Below are positions 15,927 to 19,964 of a DNA stretch of 64,000 nucleotides, in pieces. The notes under the pieces were generated by a model. The model saw nothing but the letters and a program-made list of their open reading frames with translations, did no database searches and was not told the DNA's origin. Each line of letters starts with the position of its first letter. The stretch's first letter is position 1. Source of the DNA: Anaerobaca lacustris (GTDB lineage: Bacteria; Planctomycetota; Phycisphaerae; Sedimentisphaerales; Anaerobacaceae); contig NZ_JASCXX010000006.1 in assembly GCF_030012215.1 (NCBI RefSeq), forward strand, positions 124,001-188,000, given 5' to 3'. Made by a program: the position numbers and the translations under genes.

Positions 15927-16766
15927 TCAGCCGGTTCTTGCATACCCTTTGCCCTGGCGTCCTGCCCTGCACCCTCTGTCGCCTGCCGAAATTGGGTTCG
16001 TTTCGTACGACGGTTCCTCCGCTGCCACGTCCGCAATGGGGCCGGCATGGTGGAATGATGCCTCCGTAGCGAGGGCGTCCCGCCCTTGATTCCCGCCCGC
16101 CGGCGCGTTCGTAGTGAGCCTGCCCTCGCGAACGCGGGGGCCGCAAGGCGTTCCCGAACCTCCAAACGCGGTCTCCGGCGTCCGGGCGCCCGGCGCCGCG
16201 TCCGCGCCAAACGAAGCCAATTGGGCCGCCGTTGCCGACTCCTGACCCGCCGTCACGCGCGCCTGCCGCTCCTTGCGCAGCGCCGCCATCGTCCGGTACA
16301 GGCTGTTTTCGATCCGCCGCTCGTAGACCAGCAGCCGGTCCAGCACCTGGGAGCGGGCGAAGTCCGTCATCACCACCTGCCCCAGGACCACCTCGTCCTC
16401 GCCCGGACCGGGCTTGATCGGCAGCCCATGCCTGGGCCAGAGCACGATGTCGTCGGCGTTCTCGCGATAGACCGTGGCGAAGACCGCGCTCTGGAGCCGC
16501 TCGGCCCGCCGGAGCCGCCAGGCCAGGCCCACCGCCCGCTCGGCCAATATCGTTTCGATCGCTCCGACCGGCGCCAGCTCCTCCAGCATCCGGTCCCGGT
16601 AGCCCTCAAACTCCGCCGGGTCTTCCCCCTTGATGACCACCTGCTCGGCCAGGAGCCCGTGCTTGGCGGCATTCTGTGACGCCGCCGCCTTCCCCTCGGC
16701 CGTACGCGGCCCCGTGGACTTCTGCGCGTTCAACCGATTCGCCTGGATCTGAGCAACGCTCGCCAT
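15927..16766 (-). CDS. Planctomycete conserved protein with NAQKSTGPRT motif, unknown function
   Basis: The 279-residue protein begins with RLNAQKSTGPRTAEGKAAAS followed by QNAAKHGLL, a signature of a protein family that occurs in many copies in planctomycete genomes. Residues about 40-185 are helical and charged (EFEGYRDRMLEELAP, RLRRAERLQSAVFATVY). The last 90 residues are low-complexity and include pieces such as YETNPI and KGYARTG that look like translated repeat DNA rather than a folded domain. The function is unknown; multi-copy behaviour hints at a mobile or defence-related role but this is speculation. GGAGG is 7 nt before the ATG. Confidence 0.7.
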   Translation of the reverse strand: MASVAQIQANRLNAQKSTGPRTAEGKAAASQNAAKHGLLAEQVVIKGEDPAEFEGYRDRMLEELAPVGAIETILAERAVGLAWRLRRAERLQSAVFATVYRENADDIVLWPRHGLPIKPGPGEDEVVLGQVVMTDFARSQVLDRLLVYERRIENSLYRTMAALRKERQARVTAGQESATAAQLASFGADAAPGARTPETAFGGSGTPCGPRVREGRLTTNAPAGGNQGRDALATEASFHHAGPIADVAAEEPSYETNPISAGDRGCRAGRQGKGYARTG

Positions 16767-17250
16767 GATGCATCCTCCATATTTGTCAATTACTGCTAAC
16801 CTATTCGTCTTTCATTGCCTAACTATCCTACTACTATGCCAATTCTTCTTACAGCAAACCACGTGCCACCACTAAACCCTTTTGCGTCCCGGAAGAAGCA
16901 ACGGCAAGACCTTGCCAAATAAGAAGTTACAGGCGGCGAGACGCAGACGTCGCGAACCTTGGCGCAAAGCCCGATCAGACTGTCACAATGGCAGTCCAGC
17001 GGGACCGTCCGCGCAGGATGGGCCGTGCCCACCGTTCCAGGAAAGCCACCGCCCAAGCCCGCCATGGGCGGACGCGGGCCGATAAGCTCTTCTCCGAAAA
17101 GGAGTTAGGCGGGTATGTAAGAAATGCACAGGAAGACGTCCGTTCAGCCCCCGCTTGCCTCCGTCTCTTCTCTCGGCCTGTGTCTGCGGAAAAGAAATTC
17201 CTGTGAATTCATAAGCGGGTACTTGACCCCCAACATGTAGAGGGTTAGCA

Positions 17251-17295
17251 TCCAGCAATCGCTACATATGCGAAGCATATGTAGCGATTGCTGGA
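17251..17295. repeat. Perfect 21-bp inverted repeat with 3-nt loop
   Basis: Bases 17251-17271 are the exact reverse complement of 17275-17295, with the loop GAA between them. The arm begins TCCAGCAATCGC and its inner end is ACATATGC. A T7 run starts 14 nt after the hairpin, which is too far for a textbook terminator. Possible identities are an RNA hairpin, a transposon end or a cruciform protein site. Confidence 0.8.
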
Positions 17296-17387
17296 GCGAA
17301 AGGCAACGGTTTTTTTGCAGCAATGGCAGAATCTGGTGAATATCTTGACTATCGTTGGACGACGCTATAGTATCACGCTTTTGTTCT

Positions 17388-17416
17388 TTGATTTTACTGA
17401 GGTTAGCTGCTATAAT
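17388..17416 (+). promoter_or_regulatory. Consensus sigma-70 type promoter of the island
   Basis: TTGATT (17388-17393) and TATAAT (17411-17416) are separated by exactly 17 bp. A second, weaker pair, TTGACT (17345-17350) and TATAGT (17366-17371), lies just upstream with a 15-bp spacer. The 8-bp inverted repeat AATTTGCC/GGCAAATT overlaps the TATAAT box and the likely start site and could be an operator. Confidence 0.6.
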
Positions 17417-17680
17417 TTGCCTGACAGGGAGGGACAGTAACAGGCTGGGCAAATTCTCTGGAGTAGGGATAGCCGTTGGGCGCGTGAAATCTCGTTGGCG
17501 TGAATGCGATTGCTTCTCGCGCAAACGCGTGACCAGAAGGTGCGTGTGACAAATAACGTGGTACTTGTTCTCTGCTCAGTGTTCGGTCATTCGCAGCACA
17601 GGATGGTTGTGGATGCGTATAGGCAATGGTCGCTGTAGTACTTTGGTGGACTGTAGACACTGATCTCAAGGGGTGGAGCG

Positions 17681-17854
17681 ATGGCGGACGAAGAACGGCA
17701 ACTGGAAGTATCAGAGGCAAGGGCGCAGGGCGAACGACGATTTGTGCTCGGTACGGTCATTGCTGACGATCAGCGCCAGTACATAGAGAGCGTGCGCGAG
17801 TGGCTGCGCGACTCTCTTGAGAAGAAAGAGAAGATCATGGGGAAGTGCCTTTAG
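17681..17854 (+). CDS. 57-residue acidic/basic helical protein, unknown function
   Basis: An open frame from ATG at 17681 to TAG at 17852-17854 encodes 57 residues, beginning MADEERQLEVSEARAQGE and ending LEKKEKIMGKCL. GGGGTGGAG lies just upstream of the start. The composition is helical and strongly charged, with no signal peptide or recognised domain. It lies 70 bp before the papain-like gene on the same strand, downstream of the promoter at 17388-17416, so it may be a regulator, inhibitor or partner of that protein; this is inference from position only. Confidence 0.55.
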   Translation: MADEERQLEVSEARAQGERRFVLGTVIADDQRQYIESVREWLRDSLEKKEKIMGKCL

Positions 17855-17924
17855 CGCGTCGACCGCGCGTGCGTCTCTTGGAGGGGGGGCGTAGCCCATT
17901 GTCATGGACAACGGAGGCGAGAAA

Positions 17925-19586
17925 ATGCGAGACCGATTCTGCCCTGTTTTGGAGCCGGAGTTCAAATCGTGTAAGCCGCCATTTTCCTTTTATCGTTTCG
18001 CGGACAAACAGTGGCCCGATGAGAACAACAGAACTCTGCACCGTATCTTTTCGCTAATGCGCAAGATGAAAGCGCAAACGATGGTCGTGGAGAAACTGGA
18101 CAGAGCAAGAGAGCTCGATGCCGAAGCTGCTGCGGCGGAGGTTCGCTGCCAAGCCTCTGTAGGGTTCCAAGCCTATCGCCTCGGCTTCTTCTCATCACCG
18201 GTGACTTGGGAGACGCTTCCATATGCTGACGACACCGATTATCTGGGCTATGCGGTAGTGTTGAGTATAGGGCTCCCAGATGGAACGTCGCGCAAGTATA
18301 TCTATGAAGCCGTTATTGTGGAACCGTCTTTTCAGCAGGAAGACCGGAAGACATTCGGAACCAGCCTGCCGGCCCACTACGTACATTGCGTACGCCGGTA
18401 TTCGGCATGGGTGGCTGGGCATAGGTTCACTCTTTGGGGGAGCTTCTTCGCGCAACAGAATGGCCTCACTAATGTATGTGCGCATGTCGCACTGCGATCC
18501 GTGCTTAACAACCTGCCTGAACGGGCAGAACGAATGATCTCGTGCGAGGAAATAAACCACGATCTGAATATTGACCACGCCACGCGCAAGATTGGAAGAT
18601 ATGGCGGCGAAGCAGAGAGCAGTGGTCTTCATCCCTCTGAAATATGCAAAGTCATCGAGAAGCATGGGTGGAAGTTCATTCTTTCGAACTACGAAGATCC
18701 TGTCGGACAGCCCCAACCGTACTGGAAGTTTGTATACTCCATAATTGAGTCCGGCTATCCGGTCCTGGTGTATTTCACAGCGGGCCAGGCTCAGCATGTG
18801 ATCTGCGTGGTCGGACACACGCTGAATACTGATGTATGGGATGCCGAAGCGCGGCTTGCGTATTCTGGAGCGCCACGCGCAGAGTACCTGTCAAGCGCTT
18901 CCTGGATAGACCATTTTGTCATACACGACGACAACTATGGGATGTATTTGTGTATGCCCTCGAAAGCCCTTTATCCAACGGCTGGCGGAAGGCGCCCATT
19001 TCAGGTGACTGGTGCGGTTGGCATTGTGCCGACTGAGATGGAGTTGGGTCCCCTTTTGGCGGAGCCCCTTGCCTCGTGGGCTTTGCGCTGTACCACTAGA
19101 ACGGACTTCCTTCAGGACTGTTACTGGCTGCATGTCTTGAGGCATGAGGATGATGCTTTTGGCAAGTGGCTTGTCCTGCGGACGTTATGCGTAGGCAAAG
19201 GCTGTTATCAACAGCACCTTCAGGACATAGAGGACGTGCAGGGAAATGCCCTGAAGGGAAATGAGATCAGCGTAATCACAGGTAGTTTGCCTGAGCACTT
19301 CTGGATGACGGAGGTTACGCTGACGGATGTATATACCGCCAACAAACGTAAGCTCGGAGAAGTGCTGTTTTCCCTTTCAGATCCGGCGATCCGGACAGAG
19401 GATTCTAATGAGGAATATACGTCGAAAGTATTCTCCAAGTGTCTAGCCATCCGCTTGCCGGGGAATGTGGTTATTCCCCAGGTCGAGTCCAACGACCAAG
19501 TATCCCTGAGAGTGTGGCCTACAGATCTCACGGGACATGTGCCCCTTCTGCGAATGCGTTCTCCCATTCCACGTTTTGAGTGGTGA
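17925..19586 (+). CDS. Papain-fold-like protein with Cys/His/Asp triad, unknown family
   Basis: The 553-residue protein has no signal peptide and is predicted cytoplasmic. The middle part (about 170-345) looks like a C39/papain-type cysteine peptidase: Gln178 and Cys185 in QQNGLTNVCAHVAL, His291 in QAQHVICVVGHT, and Asp335 or Asp336 in HDDNYG. The order Cys, His, Asp and the spacing fit that fold. The N-terminal 170 and C-terminal 200 residues match nothing I recognise. GC content is clearly lower than in flanking genes, suggesting transfer. GGAGG (17913-17917) supports the ATG at 17925; an in-frame ATG at 17904 has none. Protease, deamidase or transferase activity are all possible. Confidence 0.7.
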   Translation: MRDRFCPVLEPEFKSCKPPFSFYRFADKQWPDENNRTLHRIFSLMRKMKAQTMVVEKLDRARELDAEAAAAEVRCQASVGFQAYRLGFFSSPVTWETLPYADDTDYLGYAVVLSIGLPDGTSRKYIYEAVIVEPSFQQEDRKTFGTSLPAHYVHCVRRYSAWVAGHRFTLWGSFFAQQNGLTNVCAHVALRSVLNNLPERAERMISCEEINHDLNIDHATRKIGRYGGEAESSGLHPSEICKVIEKHGWKFILSNYEDPVGQPQPYWKFVYSIIESGYPVLVYFTAGQAQHVICVVGHTLNTDVWDAEARLAYSGAPRAEYLSSASWIDHFVIHDDNYGMYLCMPSKALYPTAGGRRPFQVTGAVGIVPTEMELGPLLAEPLASWALRCTTRTDFLQDCYWLHVLRHEDDAFGKWLVLRTLCVGKGCYQQHLQDIEDVQGNALKGNEISVITGSLPEHFWMTEVTLTDVYTANKRKLGEVLFSLSDPAIRTEDSNEEYTSKVFSKCLAIRLPGNVVIPQVESNDQVSLRVWPTDLTGHVPLLRMRSPIPRFEW

Positions 19587-19964
19587 TGCACAAAGAGCCC
19601 CGATAATGGGGTCACTCACAGTTATGGCCGAATATCGACAGCCCCTGCCCGGTGTCGTTCCGAACATCCGAAACGAATTCGACACTCGAAGCCCCAATGA
19701 CCGAGACGCTGCCGCTCTCGGGATGGGGACCTCTTGCTTCCTCTTCTATGTTTCCTGCGGGCAATACCACCGACGGCGGGACGCCCTCGGGACGCAAGGG
19801 CACGATGCCCTCGCCACGAAGGGCAGTGCTCGACCGGTCCGAGGCGGTCTTCGCATAACAAAACCGGGCGACAACTCATCTGCCGCATGTCCGTAAGGGT
19901 GTCAAGAGCGCCCTACGGCGTCGCTGCAGACGAGTTGCCGCCCGGAACAGAGTCTACCGCATCG
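19587..19964. other. Gene-free stretch with repeat fragments
   Basis: No credible gene is seen in these 378 bp. CCCC-GATAAT-GGGG at about 19598-19611 may be a weak terminator hairpin after the papain-like gene. Around 19785-19846 lie GGGACGCCCTCGGGACGC and related GCCCTCG/CGAGGGC fragments, similar to the GCGAGGGCGTCCCGCCC stretch near 16070-16090, which look like planctomycete intergenic repeats. Confidence 0.5.

Follow-up and report, generated by a model that had tools for sequence, protein, structure and literature searches.

The question raised by this part of the Anaerobaca lacustris genome is whether a small gene and the large gene behind it, which lie in a segment unlike both of its sides, belong together, and what such a unit could do. 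Within the window (the whole stretch of DNA analysed, 64,000 nucleotides), the lowest-GC 2.4-kb segment covers positions 17101-19500, with 52.7% GC against 62.1%, the next-lowest reaching 58.1%. The gene for a 553-residue protein found here has a GC3 of 58%, compared with 80-89% in the neighbouring genes, and, scored against host genes, its codon use reaches 0.37, about half of 0.67-0.78. The island with composition and codon use foreign to its surroundings that the preliminary description had reported is thus borne out. Shorter low-GC dips are seen elsewhere in the window, at 26.4-27.5 and 36.8-37.8 kb (each about 1 kb) and at 57.0-58.0 kb.

The edges of the island could be set by comparing six genomes of the same genus, including its own. 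Two of the five others (G001 and G002) align with the window as far as 17152/17153 and pick up again at 19740 and 19628, respectively, with other genes in between, which defines a variable island (17153-19700, no strand assigned) with a left edge at about 17153 and a right edge between 19628 and 19740. The upstream GTPase gene is present in all six genomes, as is leuB beyond the variable stretch, of which the G002 contig has just the end, while the protease gene is found in its own genome only and is absent from the other five. At the island site, G001 contains a Y1 transposase (PF01797), and G002 codes for a DUF4238 protein (L038:747-2153 and flanks), which is hit by the PADLOC model DUF4238-Pers at 5.7e-11, so the site takes different cargo in close relatives. 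Judged by this sequence match, the cargo of G002 is of a known defence type, and protection against T7 has been reported for one DUF4238 protein, encoded in a P2-like phage hotspot (PMC9122126). This Persephone-type gene occupies the same chromosomal site as our pair but is a single gene, and its protein is unrelated to those of the window. The island is therefore horizontally acquired, exchangeable cargo at a chromosomal hotspot.

Some further features were observed around this site. In L038, one side of the DUF4238-Pers gene carries a duplicate of some 95 bp from the right flank. The inserts of both sister genomes (L037:3900-4300 and L038:2170-2330) start with related sequence holding ACCTGACACCTTT motifs, which are in tandem in G002 and beside the Y1 transposase in G001, and which are possibly a transposase target or end. 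Beside the hotspot, the minus strand of the window (15927-16766) codes for a protein of 279 residues, starting with MASVAQIQANRLNAQKSTGPRTAEGKAAA, which is kept in the sister genomes and has no Pfam match.

The noncoding features of the island contribute less to the answer. A hairpin with perfect 21-bp arms and a 3-nt loop (17251-17271/17275-17295, no strand assigned) exists as previously described, with an MFE z of -8.4 over 81 nt, and lies roughly 100 nt into the variable segment. Whether it stays together with the gene pair had been left to be checked. It is restricted to this single genome: no counterpart was found upstream of nine other family members, nor a second copy in the genome, which rejects it as a mobile repeat or a family hallmark. 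It does not appear to be a standard intrinsic terminator either, as the scan did not recognise it and the T-run begins about 14 nt past the stem. The hairpin is a bystander, inside the island and no part of the two-gene module. Downstream of it, the promoter noted before is present as a candidate extended sigma-70-like site on the plus strand (TTGATT-17-TATAAT plus TG, 17388-17416), assigned by consensus match only. It is the best site, scoring 10/12, and with five promoter-like sites observed versus 1.7 +/- 1.4 expected, the excess is modest.

The large gene (17925-19586, plus strand) codes for 553 amino acids from an ATG at 17925 preceded by a GGAGG Shine-Dalgarno site, or for 560 from an ATG at 17904, and belongs to a family of which we aligned 20 members. 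The predicted nucleophile, Cys185 (codon 18477-18479), is invariant in 20/20, and the predicted catalytic His291 (18795-18797) and Asp335 (18927-18929), the latter being the first Asp of an HDD motif, are invariant in all 19 members reaching each column (192/298/342 in 560-residue numbering). The C39/papain-like order of these residues, pointed out from the single sequence, is consequently a conserved property of the homologues. Residues E63, R92, F95, and Q185 (560-residue numbering) are also nearly fixed in this alignment.

The protease family is sporadic. The window protein alone gave no match in a single-sequence scan of genome contigs or in the plasmid search, while a scan of the contigs with a three-member alignment recovered five loci, including Thermodesulfobacteriota and Limisphaerales, and tblastn with a distant relative as query identified four plasmids, of Shewanella, Hymenobacter, Mesorhizobium, and Pseudomonas. 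Of 392 Planctomycetota genomes sampled, 13 have the family according to profile searches, and it is also present in Thermodesulfobacteriota, Verrucomicrobiota, and, with the four plasmids, three other lineages. On the family tree, no fewer than four switches between Planctomycetota and other phyla are needed, pointing to gene transfer across phylum borders. Scans of viral contigs found no relatives, and none were found in phage records. With regard to named families, the window protein reaches 16.9 bits (E 0.01) against Peptidase_C39_2 (PF13529), under the Pfam gathering cutoff of 24 bits, and the best family member an E value of 1e-5. NCBIfam and PHROGs gave no consistent match, no PADLOC model matched either window protein or two relatives, and single-sequence and profile searches of PDB gave no meaningful match. 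By these searches, the family appears to be unnamed in Pfam, NCBIfam, PHROGs, and PADLOC, which agrees with the earlier failure to match it to a known system.

Two variants of the gene were also seen. A genome of the same order carries a disrupted copy (L068, G336:C1:2920907-2923650, minus strand), in which two pieces matching the family profile lie about 1.5 kb apart with a stop inside each. The Shewanella and Pseudomonas members (L069:9977-12136 and L070:9881-12061) are about 190 residues longer, and their C-terminal extension aligns between those two alone.

An AlphaFold2 model of the 553-residue protein, built with six sequences, is of middling confidence (pLDDT 68, pTM 0.73), and the loop around Asp335 falls below a pLDDT of 50. 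Foldseek alone gave weak hits for the model (best E 0.08). The modelled core (residues 148-368) resembles staphopain C with a Z of 9.0 over 155 residues (rmsd 3.4), followed by ZUFSP (8.4 over 195 residues, the window protein having the catalytic order C-H-D), UfSP (7.6), and C39 domains (about 7). The core thus very probably adopts a papain-like peptidase fold, as proposed before, and the Cys-His-Asp/Asn order on such a fold, taken from the triad alignment and this middling-confidence model, would place the protein in clan CA. The flanks had been described as large and unmatched. This holds for the N-terminal domain (residues 1-175; 17925-18449, plus strand), which when folded alone has a pLDDT of 77 and no PDB relative above a Z of 4.4 among the Foldseek candidates. 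The C-terminal domain, within the full-length model, has only a marginal match to a uracil-DNA glycosylase inhibitor (Z 4.6).

The genes found around the pair in other genomes are often defence genes, as counted in a raw tally over the family loci. These neighbours comprise a type IIG methyltransferase/nuclease, an HKD+Snf2 helicase, and DUF1016/PDC-S02 at L010; PDC-S06 AAA ATPases, a type IIG fragment, and an HKD+Snf2 helicase at L063 and L064; a ResIII helicase with an HTH at L066; a caspase and a caspase-helicase protein at L072; and a TrlF ATPase at L069. In two of the plasmids (L070 and L071), multiubiquitin-ThiF operons adjoin the pair, L071 also having an AbiEi-type gene, and a Brocadia element (L009) carries a ThiF gene. 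An IS1-type transposase lies near the pair at L020 and a terminase-like gene at L018, and no defence neighbours were seen at L061, L062, L065, and L067. Together with the exchange at the sister site and the plasmids, the neighbours in this raw tally locate the family in defence islands and exchange hotspots. The protease sequence has no visible signal peptide and no gene for secretion was noticed beside the pair, so the toxin, effector, or defence module suggested initially, whose defence-type setting is upheld, can be narrowed to intracellular defence or addiction.

The small gene (17681-17854, plus strand, 57 amino acids) sits where 17 other family loci also have a small gene. It has a GGAG directly 5' of its ATG and a coding-like GC content by codon position (67/34/65%), so the very small coding frame noted originally appears to be real. 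A same-strand frame of 45-85 residues lies directly upstream of the protease gene in all 18 loci with upstream sequence, ending anywhere from 86 nt before the start of the large gene to 29 nt inside it. The two genes are thus kept side by side in the family, as the preliminary description had left to be checked, though nothing points to a regulator in the transcription factor sense, the type of gene that its size had suggested. One could argue that such a frame is a chance ORF or a leader and that the protease works alone, as 73 of 103 control genes have an ORF of similar size upstream when no Shine-Dalgarno site is required. Nevertheless, the excess in the family is significant under this loose rule (18/18, p 0.004) and also with a Shine-Dalgarno site (11/18 versus 25/103, p 0.003), a rule that misses the window's own site, since the GGAG there sits too near the ATG. 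When the related loci L063 and L064 are compared, the small gene has a dN of 0.067, a dS of 0.51, and a dN/dS of about 0.13, and third positions account for 16 of its 24 changes, indicating that it is translated and constrained there, and NCBI annotates the gene in all four plasmids, which are unrelated. A chance frame is accordingly very improbable. As for kinship among the small proteins, 18 of 136 pairs are similar at p <= 0.05, a weak excess over the roughly seven expected, and that of the window is closest to those of L018 and L016. Their sequences diverge fast, and it is their shared position, rather than sequence, that makes a common origin of all of them likely.

If the small protein is genuine, it could be something other than an inhibitor. 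Peptidases of the C39 type mature small precursors whose genes lie nearby, and their domains are among the fold matches of the window protease, which also has their Cys-His-Asp order and a weak profile match in common with them. The small protein might then be a substrate, a precursor peptide or a zymogen-like activator matured by the protease. Yet the protease lies under the Pfam threshold and has other flanking domains, the small proteins show no evident double-glycine leader, and none of the loci examined has an ABC transporter beside the pair, so we give this little credence. A role in processing or deconjugating ubiquitin-like (Ubl) modifiers for bacterial Ubl conjugation systems, with the small protein as a cofactor, would agree with the papain fold shared with ZUFSP and UfSP (C78) and with the ThiF genes of the two plasmids and the Brocadia element. 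No sequence similarity to these proteases was found in the PDB sequence and profile searches, however, staphopain and C39 domains score equally, and most loci, including the window, have no Ubl genes nearby. Moreover, the catalytic order of UfSP is C-D-H, while that of the window protease is the one of papain and C39, and we regard this role as rather improbable. The pair could also be a pure addiction module, serving to stabilise mobile DNA without acting against phages, as the small-then-large gene order, the plasmid and island locations, and the hotspot exchange would suggest. Sequence alone does not tell addiction and defence apart, but the frequent defence gene setting and the defence gene at the corresponding sister site make pure addiction unlikely.

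Precedents exist for a protease with a small adjacent partner. Papain-like proteases are paired with small inhibitors of adjacent genes in staphopain/staphostatin, SpeB/Spi, and Bfp/Bfi, and some of the Bacteroides Bfp/Bfi (C10) pairs are carried by mobile DNA (PMC2873492). Like staphopain/staphostatin (C47), our pair combines a papain-like fold with a small adjoining gene, although here it is upstream rather than downstream in every locus, the protease has large extra N- and C-terminal domains, and it has no visible signal peptide, while staphopain and the Bfp proteases are secreted. Inhibitors of the staphostatin/Bfi type are beta-barrel proteins of about 100 residues, larger than the small protein of the window. 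In conflict systems, trypsins co-occur with small domains and peptidases are paired with small proteins (PMC7159879). There, as in our pair, a peptidase in defence-type loci has a small partner gene linked to it, but the peptidase is of another class, and the MoxR-vWA or NTPase core is not found beside our pair. A peptidase with a small partner in defence loci is hence a known kind of arrangement, while this particular pair is absent from the databases searched, and no paper on it turned up in the literature collection that was searched.

That the module and its family are real is highly probable, and the pair probably serves bacterial defence as a module that has so far gone unrecognised. The reading that we prefer, at a probability of roughly 0.45, is a mobile two-gene defence/addiction cassette with an intracellular papain-like protease restrained by its small partner. 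In its favour, we count the site exchange, the invariant triad, the papain fold, the constant small gene, the defence neighbours, the sporadic spread, the cross-phylum transfer, the lack of a visible signal peptide, and the precedent of adjacent inhibitors (PMC2873492); against it, the middling model with its low-confidence Asp335 loop, the four loci with no defence neighbours, the weak kinship of the small proteins, the lack of a PADLOC match, and that of phage or viral relatives. Taken separately, a defence role of the pair is somewhat favoured, while the small protein as an inhibitor of the protease is a tentative assignment. Beyond the sequence comparisons, we infer that the protease is active, that the pair acts against phages, that the small protein is inhibitory, and that there are a trigger and a substrate. 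The cassette is exchanged at the hotspot, and the small protein would bind the protease and hold it inactive; infection, or loss of a labile partner, would release the protease, which would cut host or viral proteins and abort the infection. The bolder version, an undescribed immune module crossing phyla, with a cytosolic papain-like effector released by infection, a novel N-terminal domain, and a fast-evolving small inhibitor, is more speculative still.

If this is true, an uncatalogued two-gene module with a papain-like effector would be added to the bacterial immune repertoire, in which the proteases named in a survey of conflict systems are mostly trypsin- or caspase-like (PMC7159879). Its layout is compact enough for the module to be cloned whole, and because it occasionally lies next to bacterial ubiquitin-like systems, a connection of papain-like proteases with prokaryotic Ubl pathways becomes testable.
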